This document shows positions 3,484 through 8,937 of a DNA stretch of 64,000 nt, one piece after another (position 1 is the stretch's first letter; each line of letters begins with the position of its first letter). Origin of the DNA: Planctomycetaceae bacterium. Its GTDB lineage: Bacteria; Planctomycetota; Planctomycetia; Planctomycetales; Planctomycetaceae. Both the position numbers and the translations under genes were made by a program. The notes beneath the pieces are model-generated. The model did not search any database and had not been told where the DNA came from. It was given only the letters and a program-made list of their open reading frames with translations. The stretch covers positions 1 through 64,000 of the forward strand of contig JAKFUF010000080.1 in assembly GCA_021732845.1 (NCBI GenBank), given 5' to 3'.

Positions 3484-3623
3484 GGAGCCTCCATGCTCGG
3501 GGTTGTAACTTGCGTCGCGAGTTTTACAAATTTGACTCGCAATCCACATCCTTGTGGATATTTTCATTCAAGTGCATTGTTCGTGCCACGAAGAAAAAAG
3601 CGGGTTCGAAATTTTTGCGTGGC

Positions 3624-6600
3624 TCATGGCAGGCTCCAAACGCGGACCGTTTGATCGAGTCCAGCGGTCACGGCCGTCTTGCCGTCGGACGACAGTGACA
3701 CCGCCACGACCGCCTCGGCATGGCCTTTCAAAATTGCCACCACCTTGCCGGTTTCCAGTGACCACAGTTTCACGTCAGTCGACCCGGCCGTGGGGTCGAA
3801 ATGTTTCACAGCGACTTTCAGCAAGGCTTCAGCCTTCGCGCGGGGTGGCTCAACGACAACTCCGCCCGACAGCAATTCATTCCTTGGAGACCCCTCCACG
3901 GGCTGGCCTTCGGCCAGAACTGTTTTGACACGATTCGAGGGGCTTCCAGCGAGCAGCCAGCGCCCGTCGGACGAGACTGCAAATGGCAGTTGTCCCTCTT
4001 CGCCTTTGCTGAGCGCGATTCGATGCTTTTCCGTGCCCTGTTCGATGTCGAGCACAACAACTTCCCGTTGAAGCTCGTCCCAAACCACCGCCAGCCGGCC
4101 ATCGGCCGAAAACTCAAGACATCCTGGTGCTGTTGCAGGAACCTTAACCTGATGGACGACATTTCCGGTGGTGGCCTCCCACTGCACAACCGACTCGCCG
4201 TCGTAGGCCATCAACCGCTGCGAACTGTTCGAGGCCCCGACCTTGAACACGGGATTCGGCCGCTTGCCGACCGGTTTCGAAACTCCACTCGTGCGGTCCA
4301 GGCGGGTCACAGAACCGTCCTGATGTCCACACAGGAGAAATCGGCCATCGGGACAAACTGCCACCGACAAAACGCCGCTTCCCGTGTAAGCCTGGGCAGG
4401 CGCGTACGTGGCTTCGTCCAGCGGCTGGCCATCGAGTGACGGCATGGTGAGGCCGTCGTTCGGAGGGCGCTTGGTCTTTTTTGCCGCTTTCGCGGACTTT
4501 GTCGACGGCTTCGGAGCGGGCTGTCCGGAGGCGGGCTTTCCGGAAACCACCGCTTTTTCACCGGGCACGGTCACGCTGAAATTGATCAGGTTGAGAAACA
4601 GCGGTCCGCGATGGACCGTGGCAAAGGCGGCCCCCTTGGAATCGGGCGAGAAGGAGAGCGTGCTGGACACCGCGGGCGCTGCCCCCTTCATCTGCCGCCC
4701 GATGCTGAATGACGGCAGATCCCAGAGCGTCAGGTCGCCCTGATCCGTCGCGGCAAGGCATCTCTTCGAGTCCGGCGAAATCGCCAGGGTGACGGGGAAC
4801 CCTTCGATTCCACTCAGTGTTCCCCGCTGTGCGATCGGCTTCGCGTCGGTTTCGGCGAACACCGCCTTCGCGGCGGAAGACTCCCGTTTCACGTTCCACA
4901 ATGCCATCACTTCGCCGCGGTTCACCGACCAGAATTGCGCCGCATCATCCAGCACGGTAAGACTCACCAGCGCGCGGGCGCTTTCGTCTGCGAGCAATGC
5001 GGCACGCGGCGAGCGGCGGCTGTTCGGCAAGGTCGGCGCGAATGGCATCCGGTCAATTTCGCCTCCCGCCGTGCTGCCTTCCGCGGCCTGAGTGATCCCG
5101 CCCGCCTCAATGTCCGAGAGCGATGAAAAGCCGGTCTTTTGGCCGGTCAGTGCCGACCAACGCTGGCAGCGGCCGCTCGCATGGCCAGTGACGAGCCAGT
5201 TGCCGTCTTCAGAAAAGTCGCTGCCCACGATCAAATCCAGTTCGGCATCGTGCAGGTTCGCCAACTGCGATCCCGTGGCCACGTCATACAAAAATCCGAC
5301 CGCGGGCTGCTGTCCGGTTTCCGAGGGGCTCACATCCGTGGCTCCGACAAACAACATTTGGCCGTCAGCCGTGAAAGCCACTGTCGAAGGCGACTGGCAC
5401 CGGAAGTCCGCCGTCTGTCTTCCCGTGTCCATGTCGTAAGACATCAGGCCGCCATCAGCGGTCATCACCGTGAGTTTCTTTGCATCGGACGAGAGCGCCG
5501 CCGAGAAGAAGGCATTCGGTGGCTGCTGCAACTGGCGATCGGGCACGAACACGCGTGCCATCGCGCCGCCGGCTGCCGGGGCCGACCGGCCCTGGCGTTC
5601 CTGCAGCGAAACCCGCCGCACAACGTCGCCCGAGTCCGTGCGATGCACACTCACCGCGGTGTCATGCACCACCACCATCAGGGTTCCATCGCGGAAAAAA
5701 CTGACGGATCGAACGGTGTCGGGCGAAGCGGGTGTGGCTCCCGCCGGAGCGATGCGCGACAACACCTGCCGGGCCACCGTGTCGATCACCATGACGGCTC
5801 CGCCAGCCGTGGCCACAGCCACCCGGCCTTCATCGCGGCTGACTGTCAGATGCGAGAATGTCGCCTCCACTTCGGTGGCGAGCGGTACCGAGTTCTCGAT
5901 GGCCCCGGTGCTGGTGTCAAACTGGTGCAGGGCGACAAGCGCGCCGTTCTCTCCCGGCATCGCGCCAGTGCCCCAGCCGCGCCGGCCGCTGCGGCCAATC
6001 GCGATGGCGGAGAACCCCTGCGGCGATTCGGTCGCCGCACGGCGGGCCTTCAGAAAGGGAGCTGCGGCACTGGCATTCGCGTCCGCCGGCACCGTGCGAG
6101 TCCCGAATGCCAGATCCAGGGAGGGGGCGGCGGATGGAGCTTGTTCGCCGGTCCGAACCAGGGCGGCGACCTCGGGCAGTTCCCACACATGAATCGAGTT
6201 CTGGCCCCCGCTGCTCTCCACTGCCACGACACGGCGGTGGTTGGAACTGATGACTGGAGAGGCCCCTGCGCGGCCAATTCCAAACGCACCGCCCATTCCC
6301 ATGGCGGTGCCGCCCATTCCCATGGTGCCGCCCGGCTGCGAGCCGGACGGGGCGGCCACTGCGAAAAATTCATCGCCGGTCGTGGCATCGGCCACGACCG
6401 TCTCGCCGTTGGACAATGTGGCCAGCAGGGCACGACCATTGCCGGATGTCGAAGCACCAGTCACGAACACCTGAGTCGCCACCGGCTGGCCTGCCAGCCG
6501 CTTGAACTGCCATTGACCGATCTCCTTCCCCTGCTGCACATCCCAAGTCTTGACCGATCCATCGGCGGAGAGCACAAGCGCCGTGTCGCGGCTGGGGGAC

Positions 6601-7400
6601 AATGCCACCGGGGGAACCGTACCCTGAAAACTTGTCGCCGCGGGCACCCGGCGGACGACCAGCCCCGTGCGCAGGTCTCGCACGAGGATCTCGCCCGTGT
6701 CGAGAGCCGCGTAGAACTGTCCGCCCGACTTCGAAAAGCAGATCCGGGTCACGGGTGTCTCGCCCGATCCGTAGCCCCTCACGCGCCGCGCCGAGGCAAC
6801 GTGATACAGGTCCACCGCGCGGCCATCCCGTCGGACGGCCAGCATCCAGTTCAAGTCCGCGGAAAACGCGCATGGGTCGTCGCCTGTCGGAACGGCGTTG
6901 GTGGATCGGCCGAGACCTCCAAAGCGGCCAACGCTTTCGTCAGCCGCTTCGGTGCGGACGGGAACAATGAGAAAGTGGGACTTGTTGTCGAATCCCATCC
7001 CCGCCGAGGCGATCTCCAATTCGGGAAATTTCCGCGCGGCTTCCAGCGGCAGTTCGGCCCCCGTTTCGACATCCCAGCCGCGCACCGTGCCGGACTGTTC
7101 CAGAGACAGCAGCCGGCGGCCATCGGCGGCGAGGGCCACACGCACTACCTGTTCCTTTTGAGGGATCGTACGCAGCAGTTTTGGTGCTGAAAGGGGGTTC
7201 GTGTTTCCGGCGGCTGTGTTCGCCGGAACTGCCTGACCTCCGGTCGCTGTCGACGGAACAGCCGCCGGAACGGGAGCCGGCTTTGCTCCGCAACCCACGG
7301 AGACGGAGAAGGCCAGCAGGAGGATCAGGGATGCCGTCAGACGCAGCCCGCCTCGACAGGCATGTGGAGCTGAAACCGAGGTTGAGCATGCTCGTTTCAT
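3624..7400 (-). CDS. Large WD40-repeat lipoprotein
   Basis: Predicted 1258 aa. The N-terminus has a hydrophobic stretch (residues 21-35) and a lipobox ending at Cys37 (SVSVGC), so the protein is probably lipid-anchored and extracytoplasmic. The rest is a long series of WD40-like blades. Examples are a TVRGWDVETG blade near residue 115, a SVKTWDVQQG blade near 290, and a canonical last blade reading DQTVRVWSLP at the C-terminus. A Gly/Met-rich insert lies near residues 380-400 and a Lys/Pro-rich insert near 950-980. Proteins of this type act as interaction platforms and have no catalytic residues that I can see. It is followed 140 bp downstream by the thioredoxin-protease gene on the same strand. 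The exact blade count needs a structure prediction. Confidence 0.88.
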   Translation of the reverse strand: MKRACSTSVSAPHACRGGLRLTASLILLLAFSVSVGCGAKPAPVPAAVPSTATGGQAVPANTAAGNTNPLSAPKLLRTIPQKEQVVRVALAADGRRLLSLEQSGTVRGWDVETGAELPLEAARKFPELEIASAGMGFDNKSHFLIVPVRTEAADESVGRFGGLGRSTNAVPTGDDPCAFSADLNWMLAVRRDGRAVDLYHVASARRVRGYGSGETPVTRICFSKSGGQFYAALDTGEILVRDLRTGLVVRRVPAATSFQGTVPPVALSPSRDTALVLSADGSVKTWDVQQGKEIGQWQFKRLAGQPVATQVFVTGASTSGNGRALLATLSNGETVVADATTGDEFFAVAAPSGSQPGGTMGMGGTAMGMGGAFGIGRAGASPVISSNHRRVVAVESSGGQNSIHVWELPEVAALVRTGEQAPSAAPSLDLAFGTRTVPADANASAAAPFLKARRAATESPQGFSAIAIGRSGRRGWGTGAMPGENGALVALHQFDTSTGAIENSVPLATEVEATFSHLTVSRDEGRVAVATAGGAVMVIDTVARQVLSRIAPAGATPASPDTVRSVSFFRDGTLMVVVHDTAVSVHRTDSGDVVRRVSLQERQGRSAPAAGGAMARVFVPDRQLQQPPNAFFSAALSSDAKKLTVMTADGGLMSYDMDTGRQTADFRCQSPSTVAFTADGQMLFVGATDVSPSETGQQPAVGFLYDVATGSQLANLHDAELDLIVGSDFSEDGNWLVTGHASGRCQRWSALTGQKTGFSSLSDIEAGGITQAAEGSTAGGEIDRMPFAPTLPNSRRSPRAALLADESARALVSLTVLDDAAQFWSVNRGEVMALWNVKRESSAAKAVFAETDAKPIAQRGTLSGIEGFPVTLAISPDSKRCLAATDQGDLTLWDLPSFSIGRQMKGAAPAVSSTLSFSPDSKGAAFATVHRGPLFLNLINFSVTVPGEKAVVSGKPASGQPAPKPSTKSAKAAKKTKRPPNDGLTMPSLDGQPLDEATYAPAQAYTGSGVLSVAVCPDGRFLLCGHQDGSVTRLDRTSGVSKPVGKRPNPVFKVGASNSSQRLMAYDGESVVQWEATTGNVVHQVKVPATAPGCLEFSADGRLAVVWDELQREVVVLDIEQGTEKHRIALSKGEEGQLPFAVSSDGRWLLAGSPSNRVKTVLAEGQPVEGSPRNELLSGGVVVEPPRAKAEALLKVAVKHFDPTAGSTDVKLWSLETGKVVAILKGHAEAVVAVSLSSDGKTAVTAGLDQTVRVWSLP

Positions 7401-7456
7401 CGCTGATCCTTTTAAGGTGAACTCTACAGAAGACGAGCCCTTCAGTCCAGAACTTC

Positions 7457-7708
7457 CGCGAGAGCCACCCTGGTCATCGTTCCCGGACCCGTGACGTTCA
7501 CGATGGGTTCGCCGTCCACGGAAGGCGACCGCGAGGGCGGTATCAGGCGGCGGACTATTGCAGCCAGTTGAGCCACGCGGAGAGTTTGCCGGAGACCGAG
7601 TGGTGCTATCTTCCCAACGAGAAGCAGGAGTTTGCTGCGGGGATACGTCCGGCGGAGAATTACCTGGAGCGGAAGGGGTATCGGCTGCCGACGGAACGGC
7701 ATGGCTGA
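7457..7708 (+). pseudogene. Relic of a formylglycine-generating-enzyme (FGE-sulfatase/C-type-lectin fold) protein
   Basis: Two pieces of one FGE-domain protein lie head to tail in different frames. Around 7463-7540 the frame reads LVIVPGPVTFTMGSPSTEG, which matches the N-terminal FxMGSP signature of the domain. From 7538 the neighbouring frame reads YQAADYCSQLS, then ETEWCYLPNEK and GYRLPTE, the central block of the same family, up to a TGA at 7706-7708. About 100 codons expected between the two pieces are missing, and the conserved C-terminus after RLPTE is absent. This is therefore a deletion and frameshift relic, not an active gene. The domain is a common variable-protein scaffold in diversity-generating retroelements, which fits the Avd-like fragment that begins 12 bp downstream. 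Confidence 0.78.
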
Positions 7709-7720
7709 TTCCGCGGAACT

Positions 7721-7834
7721 GTGATCACGAAAACCTATGACCTGATCCTCTGGACGTGCCAGCATACCGGCAAGTTCCCGCGGCACCACCGGTTTGGCTT
7801 GGGCGACCGGATTGAACGCCATCTGTCAGTTTGA
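7721..7834 (+). pseudogene. Truncated Avd-like protein (diversity-generating retroelement accessory protein)
   Basis: A GTG-initiated frame of 37 codons begins [11 protein letters not shown], continues with [18 protein letters not shown] and stops at 7832-7834. This matches the N-terminal helix pair of the Avd/bAvd four-helix-bundle family, whose hallmark is KTYDLILW followed by FPR..RF.LG.RIE. Full-length members are about 110-130 residues, so some two thirds is missing. Avd binds the reverse transcriptase and template RNA in diversity-generating retroelements. The fragment sits directly after an FGE-fold relic, the usual variable-protein-then-avd order. No reverse transcriptase or template repeat is visible in the window. 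The family match is by eye; the related 23S-rRNA intervening-sequence four-helix proteins are the main alternative. Confidence 0.65.
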
Positions 7835-7977
7835 AGCCGGTGTTCTGCGGGACCGAGATCAACATCACGCAGGAAGGGATCCGCGATGTGATCCCCGCCG
7901 AAGCCTGCCATCTCGGCTGGCAGGAGTCGCTCACGCTGCTGGCGCAGCTCGTCGAGGCGGCGATTCCCGATTCCTGA
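7831..7977 (+). pseudogene. C-terminal relic of an AHSA1/SRPBCC-domain protein
   Basis: The frame from 7831 to the TGA at 7975-7977 reads GTEINITQEGIRDVIP and then CHLGWQESLTLLAQLVE, ending AAIPDS. This is the typical last third of SRPBCC/AHSA1-type proteins: a final beta strand with T.EGIP.., then the C-terminal helix with GW..SL..L..L. No start or N-terminal two thirds is present, and the sequence abuts the end of the Avd-like fragment. It is best read as a gene end left after a deletion. It could be joined to the Avd relic by the same deletion event. It is unlikely to be expressed as a functional protein. Confidence 0.6.
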
Positions 7978-8088
7978 AGGAAACGGGGATCCCATTGCCG
8001 GCGTGTGACCTTAAGTGCGTTCCTTGACCCCTCCGAAGGGTGGCGTCAAACTGCGTACAAAGATTTCTGATTCTGGAAAGGCAGGACC

Positions 8089-8937
8089 ATGGAACCGTGG
8101 CCGATTGGGGTTTTCGCGTCTGTTGACGCGGGGCTGGGCGTGCATCTGGATGTGGCACAGGAACTGGGGATCCACACGGTCCAGTTGCATGCGCCGCATG
8201 TCGAAAGCCGGTCGAAGGCGGCCGCGGATGCGTTTCTAGCCCGCTGCAAGGCGGCCGGGATTGCGGTTTCGGTCGTCTTCGGTGGCTTCCACGGCGAGAG
8301 CTACGCGGACATCGCCACGACGGCACGGACCGTGGGGCTGGTGCCCAAGGAAACTCGGGCCGCACGGCTCGCGGAAATGACTGAAATCTCGGATTTCGCC
8401 GCACTCCTTGGCTGCGGGGCCGTCGGGCTCCATATCGGATTTGTGCCCCAGGACACCGCCAGCGAAGACTACCGGAACCTGGTAAGCGCCACGCGTGACC
8501 TGCTGGATCATGTGAACGGCAACGGTCAGACCCTCAACCTGGAAACCGGTCAGGAGAGCGCCGAGCACCTGCTGGAGTTCATCCATGCGGTGAACAGGGA
8601 CAACTTGTTCATCAACTTCGACCCCGCCAACATGATCCTGTACGGCTCGGGCGAACCGATTGATGCCCTGAAGAAGGTGGGGAAATACGTCCGCAGTGTC
8701 CACTGCAAGGACGCCAAGTGGGCCACGCAGAACCGCGGCGTCGACTGGGGTTGCGAAGTCGCCCTGGGCCAGGGGGATGTGGGCATGGAAACCTACCTGC
8801 GGACGCTGAAGGATCTGGGCTACACCGGACCGCTCACCATCGAGCGCGAGATCGCCCATGACCGCGAGCAGCAGAAAAAGGACATCGGTGCCGCGGTGAA
8901 ACTGCTCACGGACTTGCGGACAAAGATCTGGGGCTGA
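8089..8937 (+). CDS. Sugar phosphate isomerase/epimerase (xylose-isomerase-like TIM barrel)
   Basis: Predicted 282 aa, the usual length for the AP-endonuclease-2-like TIM-barrel family. The barrel strands carry the expected metal ligands: Glu152 in LNLETGQE, Asp178 in INFDPANM, His205 in SVHCKDAK and Glu252 in TIEREI. GHIGFV-like strand GLHIGFVP (113-120) also fits. Members isomerise or epimerise sugars or inositol derivatives, and planctomycetes carry many paralogues, so the substrate is open. ATG 8089 is preceded by an AGG-rich stretch (GGAAAGGCAGG) ending 4 bp before it. The gene stands alone after the relic region. A small membrane protein follows 70 bp downstream. Confidence 0.92.
   Translation: MEPWPIGVFASVDAGLGVHLDVAQELGIHTVQLHAPHVESRSKAAADAFLARCKAAGIAVSVVFGGFHGESYADIATTARTVGLVPKETRAARLAEMTEISDFAALLGCGAVGLHIGFVPQDTASEDYRNLVSATRDLLDHVNGNGQTLNLETGQESAEHLLEFIHAVNRDNLFINFDPANMILYGSGEPIDALKKVGKYVRSVHCKDAKWATQNRGVDWGCEVALGQGDVGMETYLRTLKDLGYTGPLTIEREIAHDREQQKKDIGAAVKLLTDLRTKIWG

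Follow-up and report, generated by a model that had tools for sequence, protein, structure and literature searches.

Shredded remains of a probable diversity-generating retroelement target gene with an avd stub in a Planctomycetaceae genome

A short run of gene scraps in the genome of a Planctomycetaceae bacterium is most probably what is left of a dispersed gene that was a target of a diversity-generating retroelement (DGR) and carried a stub of avd behind it, rather than the remains of a whole DGR cassette. The run occupies positions 7400-8089 of the window, as we call the whole 64,000-nucleotide stretch of DNA analysed, and consists of parts of at least three genes between two intact ones. 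An earlier note on this DNA had proposed the relic of a retroelement at this place. What stands of that proposal is a DGR target with a piece of avd; a whole retroelement is the less likely reading, because no trace of a reverse transcriptase (RT) or of a template was found beside the stub in the window, where a fragment of an unrelated gene comes next.

The scraps sit within an 88.6-kb contig (C18). On one side they are flanked by an intact gene for a WD40/beta-propeller protein of 1258 amino acids (3624-7400, minus strand), and on the other by an intact gene for a xylose-isomerase-like TIM barrel protein (PF01261; 8089-8937, plus strand). Next to the WD40 gene, positions 7408-7468 (minus strand) are a copy of 61 bp that comprises the last 8 codons, the stop codon and the downstream flank of a Gfo/Idh/MocA oxidoreductase gene. 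The copy translates to VALAEVLD* and is 95% identical to positions 21728-21788 of contig C5, where the source gene is intact (PF01408 match, E 1.8e-10). Then follow, on the plus strand, FGE-sulfatase fragment 1 (TLVIVPGPVTFTMGSPSTEGDREG) at 7467-7540 and, in another frame, FGE-sulfatase fragment 2 (YQAADYCSQLS...GYRLPT) at 7539-7695. A deletion junction at 7696-7700 (plus strand), placed by collinear comparison with contig C197 of the same genome, separates fragment 2 from an Avd N-terminal stub at 7701-7834 (plus strand), which has its own ATG at 7701. After this ATG, seven codons are followed by a stop, owing to a 4-bp deletion relative to C197 in an alignment made by eye, and the second Avd frame of the stub runs from 7721 to 7834 (37 residues). 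The last scrap, at 7834-7977 (plus strand), is the C-terminal fragment of an AHSA1/SRPBCC-type gene that is unrelated to DGRs; it matched positions 88-125 of 125 of PF08327 with an E value of 0.0015, below the cut-off of that profile, and no second copy of it was found in the genome. The peptides quoted in the earlier note were all present at their place, in different frames, and the decay proposed there is upheld.

The genome (9.25 Mb in 262 contigs, 95.7% complete) was searched at the DNA level with window positions 7400-8060. Besides the query itself, four matches were obtained: the 61-bp stretch on C5, and three blocks on C197 that are collinear with the window, in the same order and orientation, and well above chance level. 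The blocks correspond to window positions 7467-7540 (E 7.6e-14; 61/74 identical to C197:9089-9016), 7539-7695 (E 5.4e-37; 128/157 identical to C197:8851-8695) and 7697-7820 (E 3.6e-29; 88/100 identical to the C197 stub), with ungapped DNA identities of 82%, 82% and 88%, respectively. The 164 bp of C197 that separate FGE fragments 1 and 2 are absent from the window. At 7696-7700 a further ~520 bp were lost relative to C197, namely the remaining FGE domain, the variable repeat (VR), a downstream hairpin and a spacer. The C-terminal variable region, whose absence had been remarked before, was removed with the C-terminal FGE part between 7695 and 7701. The C197 gene codes for a protein of 1667 amino acids with Pkinase (residues 14-261), DUF4062 (450-532), nSTAND1 (558-905) and FGE (1409-1662) domains. 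Its FGE domain scored 131.9 bits against PF03781, it has a DGR-like C-terminal end, and ~140 bp past its stop codon lies a 46-codon Avd stub. An FGE-sulfatase domain, one of the FGE/C-type-lectin-fold type of DGR target, is therefore present both at the window locus and on C197. The FGE-type variable protein suggested in the earlier note is sustained by the 82% identity of the window pieces to the C197 domain, with the correction that this was a large kinase-nSTAND protein, to which the FGE part belongs as its C-terminal domain. Over the whole genome there are 59 PF03781 (FGE-sulfatase) matches, many of them in frames longer than 700 amino acids.

The identity of the Avd piece follows from its genomic context, i.e., the FGE-avd-RT cassettes of relatives, and not from the score of the fragment alone. 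The 36-amino acid piece by itself reached 13.3 bits (E 0.12) with bAvd and 11.7 bits with the 23S rRNA intervening-sequence protein (IVP) family, both below cut-off, and the Pfam bAvd model gave no match in the own genome at E 0.001, though no control genome matched either. Since scores of 13.3 and 11.7 bits do not separate the two families, the window might hold a gene of the 23S-IVP type that has nothing to do with the FGE-like gene and came to adjoin it by chance. The identical pair was seen on C197 and in the FGE-avd-RT cassettes of relatives, which refutes such a pairing and leaves it a negligible probability; an IVP (PF05635) origin of the piece was rejected on the same genomic context. 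The 46-amino acid query matched in 16 of the 149 genomes searched, the own genome counted. Several of these matches were Avd genes of ~115 codons between an FGE gene and an RT (with motifs such as GIPIGNQTSQFFAN), and in the cassettes of such relatives the RT is followed by a template copy, rich in asparagine, of the end of the FGE gene. A profile built from nine Avds of related cassettes matched the window with an E value of 4.4e-13 and C197 with 3.4e-14. An Avd-type protein, as named in the earlier note, is thus recognized by this profile, the Pfam-level match alone being below cut-off. Within the own genome the nine-Avd profile, 116 columns long, had two matches, one on C197 (columns 3-43) and one in the window (columns 8-44). 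Both matches are stubs and no full Avd was found with it: Avd (bAvd, PF22296) is a four-helix bundle of about 110-125 amino acids, and the own-genome copies end after ~43 profile columns. More widely, the profile matched 48 of 170 genomes of the family at E 0.001, and 72 of 397 genomes of the class at E 0.0001, where some weak full-length matches may be other four-helix proteins. The outcome that the earlier note had named as speaking against it, an IVP-type or unmatched 37-residue frame in a genome with neither RT nor template repeat, does not occur: the frame is avd, and the genome does have an RT as well as a template repeat (TR).

Similarity to Avd ends at about the same codon in the window and C197 stubs, and over the 25 bp beyond the shared end the alignment of the two was no better than that of shuffled sequences (20% of shuffles reached its score). 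Because the end of the C197 stub is so nearly the same, the Avd piece had probably been shortened already when the window locus decayed, and its truncation, which had been taken as a sign of this decay, is probably not a product of it. The prior shortness is judged from one shared end point, and the two copies could alternatively have been truncated independently at the same codon. The two stubs show 11 differences in 32 codons, all of them synonymous (22.2 synonymous and 73.8 nonsynonymous sites; dS 0.81, dN 0). Between the FGE pieces of the window and C197 there are ~25 nonsynonymous differences in 171.5 sites (dN 0.16), so that nonsynonymous changes are rarer in the Avd stub than in the FGE pieces (Fisher p 1e-4). 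These differences indicate that the peptide was under selection while both copies diverged, either as a whole Avd or as a stub.

FGE-avd-RT cassettes were found in relatives (e.g., L082, L084, L091 and L093), and avd matches shortened at their 3′ side recur across them. An FGE-type tail lay directly upstream in 10 of 15 partial loci of a first set, which includes the two of the own genome, and in 5 of 10 of a second set; several partial Avd loci without an FGE tail sit at most 300 bp from a contig end. A DGR RT motif was present in the fetched flank of 1 of 25 partial loci (G225), versus 4 of 5 full-length controls. The causes of the stubs vary, with Avd joined to the TR (G225), joined to the RT (G001) or plainly truncated, and frameshifted Avds were seen in G307, G373_C483 and G206_C143. 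In G225 (L138, G225:C1025) avd is cut at ~38 codons and runs directly into the template repeat, and an RT with a DGR motif follows 1.2 kb on. Past the break, G206_C57 and C143 share a 230-bp repeat: the stubs of both loci (L134 and L135, at G206:C57 and G206:C143) break at the start of this same partly palindromic element, 92% identical, which is perhaps MITE-like. A complete FGE-avd-RT-TR cassette might have decayed in place in the window, its full-length avd being cut by the event that removed RT and TR, since complete cassettes in this order occur in related genomes and Avds fused by deletion to RT or TR exist in relatives (G001, G080, G225). However, the C197 gene, a target that is whole, has an equally short avd, and in the window the stub is followed by the AHSA1 fragment and by no RT or template trace. 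We consider it rather unlikely that a whole cassette decayed in place, and prefer a dispersed target with an Avd stub.

In one relative, a stub-bearing target could be compared with an intact cassette on the same contig. In the MAG Planctomycetaceae bacterium AS06rmzACSIP_219 (JAAYAY010000354.1), L203 is an intact cassette and L201 a second target that is followed by a 43-codon stub; the similarity of the two spans from the variable repeat to avd codon 43 (385 aligned columns, 79%). The VR of L201 differs from the L203 template at 14/33 A, 1/39 C and 0/49 G+T positions; the cassette's own VR differs from its TR at 16/33 A and 1/39 C. These adenine-specific differences indicate that a stub-bearing target can be, or recently has been, hypermutated in trans. 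In the own genome a stub was found behind only 1 of 39 FGE-type tails, and no shorter stubs behind other FGE genes were found among these 39. A hot spot of stub end points at profile columns 32-44 was considered and rejected. Related loci were collapsed to 21 hand-listed events, and the densest 3-column interval held 5 of them (p 0.05 under a uniform null, 0.42 under an exponential null). This set left out frameshifted Avds (G307, G373_C483, G057 and G206_C143, a copy of C57), contig-edge matches (G010, G021, L202, G011 and G424), C-terminal or middle pieces (G215:C245, G212:C42 and G194) and weak or diverged partial matches (G065, G258, G316, G351, G349_C179 and G373_C190), and it included the unclean G001 and G080, fused to RT, and G225, which runs into the TR.

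The stub might instead be a kept functional element and not debris, either as a mini-Avd of 40-46 amino acids or as a 3′ flank of the target that is needed, e.g., for homing in trans. The 11 synonymous and 0 nonsynonymous differences in the stubs, set beside the dN of the FGE pieces, would fit this, as would the stub behind the hypermutated L201 target. However, full-length Avds show a similar pattern across genomes (G049 versus G172: dS 0.82, dN 0.09), so that the constraint on the stub may predate the truncation. In addition, stubs at other loci show frameshifts, fusions to RT or TR or a direct run into a repeat, the end points show no hot spot against the exponential null, and a single FGE-type tail of the own genome has a stub. 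The evidence against a functional stub outweighs the evidence for it, and we regard it as distinctly improbable; the stub is better read as debris trailing a dispersed target.

A PF00078 search revealed five RTs in the genome, none of them on C18, and the window contained no DGR RT motif. One belongs to a DGR on contig C185, with the RT motif GLPIGALTSQHFAN, an HRDC accessory (PF00570, E 2.3e-18), a template and an upstream FGE gene; the other four, as read from their motifs, are of other RT classes. HRDC-accessory DGRs are a known type, and a DGR is reported from Treponema denticola. The DGR on C185 is apparently intact, with the VR at 3609-3747 and the TR at about 5395-5533 of locus L043. 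In the 139-bp VR/TR match, 16/35 template adenines and 2/104 other bases differ (p 1e-9), i.e., 16 of the 18 mismatches are at template adenines. A retroelement elsewhere in the genome, which the earlier note had envisaged, is thus present (RT, TR and adenine-specific differences), although it uses HRDC and not Avd. This DGR of the window's own genome combines an FGE variable gene, an accessory gene, an RT and a TR that shows adenine-specific differences, but its accessory is not the one of the window locus; for this reason the C185 DGR cannot be the partner that is missing there. At E 1e-5, no match to the variable repeat of C197 was obtained with its template. The 3′ ends of six other FGE genes (L003, L028, L021, L017, L023 and L016) are 70-76% identical to the C185 template, and their mismatches are concentrated at its adenines; these genes may have been targets of the C185 DGR in the past or be orphan targets of it.

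When a template for the C197 variable repeat was sought by DNA search, the genome yielded the repeat itself and 5 short weak matches (E 0.0014 to 0.76), a negative result that holds for an assembly 95.7% complete. Compared with the template of a related cassette (G056), the C197 repeat has mismatches at 13/24 A and 10/65 other bases (Fisher p 0.0006), a comparison across species and hence indirect. Because the repeat is adenine-patterned relative to this template and has no template in its own genome, C197 was probably once served by an Avd-type DGR that the assembly now lacks. As the assembly is incomplete and divided into 262 contigs, an Avd cassette could also be missing from it.

Other pieces of the same gene family were found on C5. 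Its minus strand carries, in order, the first part of a transposase of the IS110 type (below the PF01548 cut-off, with E 0.006), a 145-bp NTPase piece, a 17-bp piece, the 61-bp sequence and the intact oxidoreductase gene. The NTPase piece is 79% identical to C197, and the 17-bp piece is an exact match to C197 with an E value of 0.01 alone. On the reverse complement of C197, the C5 pieces fall at 1966-2110 and 4109-4125, collinear with and upstream of the window pieces, which fall at 4232-4305, 4470-4626 and 5173-5272 (computed from match coordinates). The 61-bp sequence is common to the C5 and C18 loci and lies beside each half. From this collinearity, and from the same 61 bp beside both sets of pieces, one gene of the kinase-nSTAND-FGE family appears to be split between C5 and C18. 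At G000:C5:21000-22500 (L042 3000-4466) the IS110-type transposase start is fused to the fragment of a gene of this family. That the 61-bp copy marks an old oxidoreductase-WD40 neighbourhood, i.e., a broken operon, was rejected: no such pair was found in 9 relative loci, bar one generic WD40 match. A run of short gene scraps in a 262-contig draft assembly could also be a mosaic made by the misjoining of a metagenomic or draft contig. The pieces cannot be misplaced reads of the other copies found in the genome, since they differ from every one of these by 5-18%, and they are embedded in a contig of 88.6 kb with an intact gene on either side. We deem an assembly artefact very unlikely, and the window locus is in all likelihood a genuine, if inert, fossil of a dispersed DGR target.

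The following course of events is consistent with these data. In living relatives, targets stand within cassettes of the order FGE(VR)-avd-RT-TR, and a second target that is trailed by no more than the first ~40 avd codons can be hypermutated in trans from an intact template, as shown for one relative. The source gene of the window pieces would have encoded a kinase-nSTAND-FGE sensor-like protein, and we infer that an avd fragment trailed it as a by-product of the copying or deletion of the original cassette. The Avd-type cassette would then have gone from this genome, the orphan target and its stub persisting on C197. A second copy of the target would have been cut up, leaving its 3′ pieces (FGE and avd stub) in the window and its 5′ pieces (the NTPase piece and, more weakly, the 17-bp piece) on C5, with the same 61 bp at both junctions. 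The window copy, without a variable repeat and out of frame, would be inert now.

Several known systems resemble parts of this arrangement. Cassettes of the BPP-1 Avd type (PMC6642488) resemble those of the relatives, where variable gene, avd, RT and TR are adjacent and VR changes are adenine-specific, and they differ from the window, which has no RT, TR or VR. FGS-domain (FGE) DGR targets have been described in ternary conflict systems, and planctomycetes with FGS effectors are mentioned there (PMC7159879). As in that work, the target is a multi-domain protein with a C-terminal FGE domain and a link to DGRs; unlike in it, the C197 protein is of the Pkinase-DUF4062-nSTAND1-FGE type and not a vWA-MoxR protein. 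A parallel in decay is Thiohalocapsa PB-PSB1, for which a report (PMC10907252) describes degenerate DGR loci with machinery missing or pseudogenised and with involvement of transposons, and explores diversification in trans. The likeness extends to the absence of key DGR machinery, to Pkinase or nSTAND1 targets with a C-terminal lectin-fold domain and to transposon-shaped decay. In PB-PSB1, however, MITE-like arrays replace the RT or TR, whereas here the target is followed by a 5′ stub of avd, and of the window copy only scraps remain, which include no variable repeat. In the main text of that report avd is not mentioned. In the open-access literature, mostly at the level of abstracts, no description of avd stubs behind targets was found.

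Known biology is not overturned by these findings, degenerate DGR loci being of a kind already known. Were the stub functional after all, which we think improbable, stub-bearing targets would form a defined class and not random debris. Hypermutation in trans of a second target that bears a stub could be tested on the L201/L203 pair. The genome of the window has apparently lost its Avd-type DGR and kept the HRDC-type one, and FGE genes that are followed by an Avd stub can be used to recognize DGR targets, former or remote, which RT-based surveys would miss.
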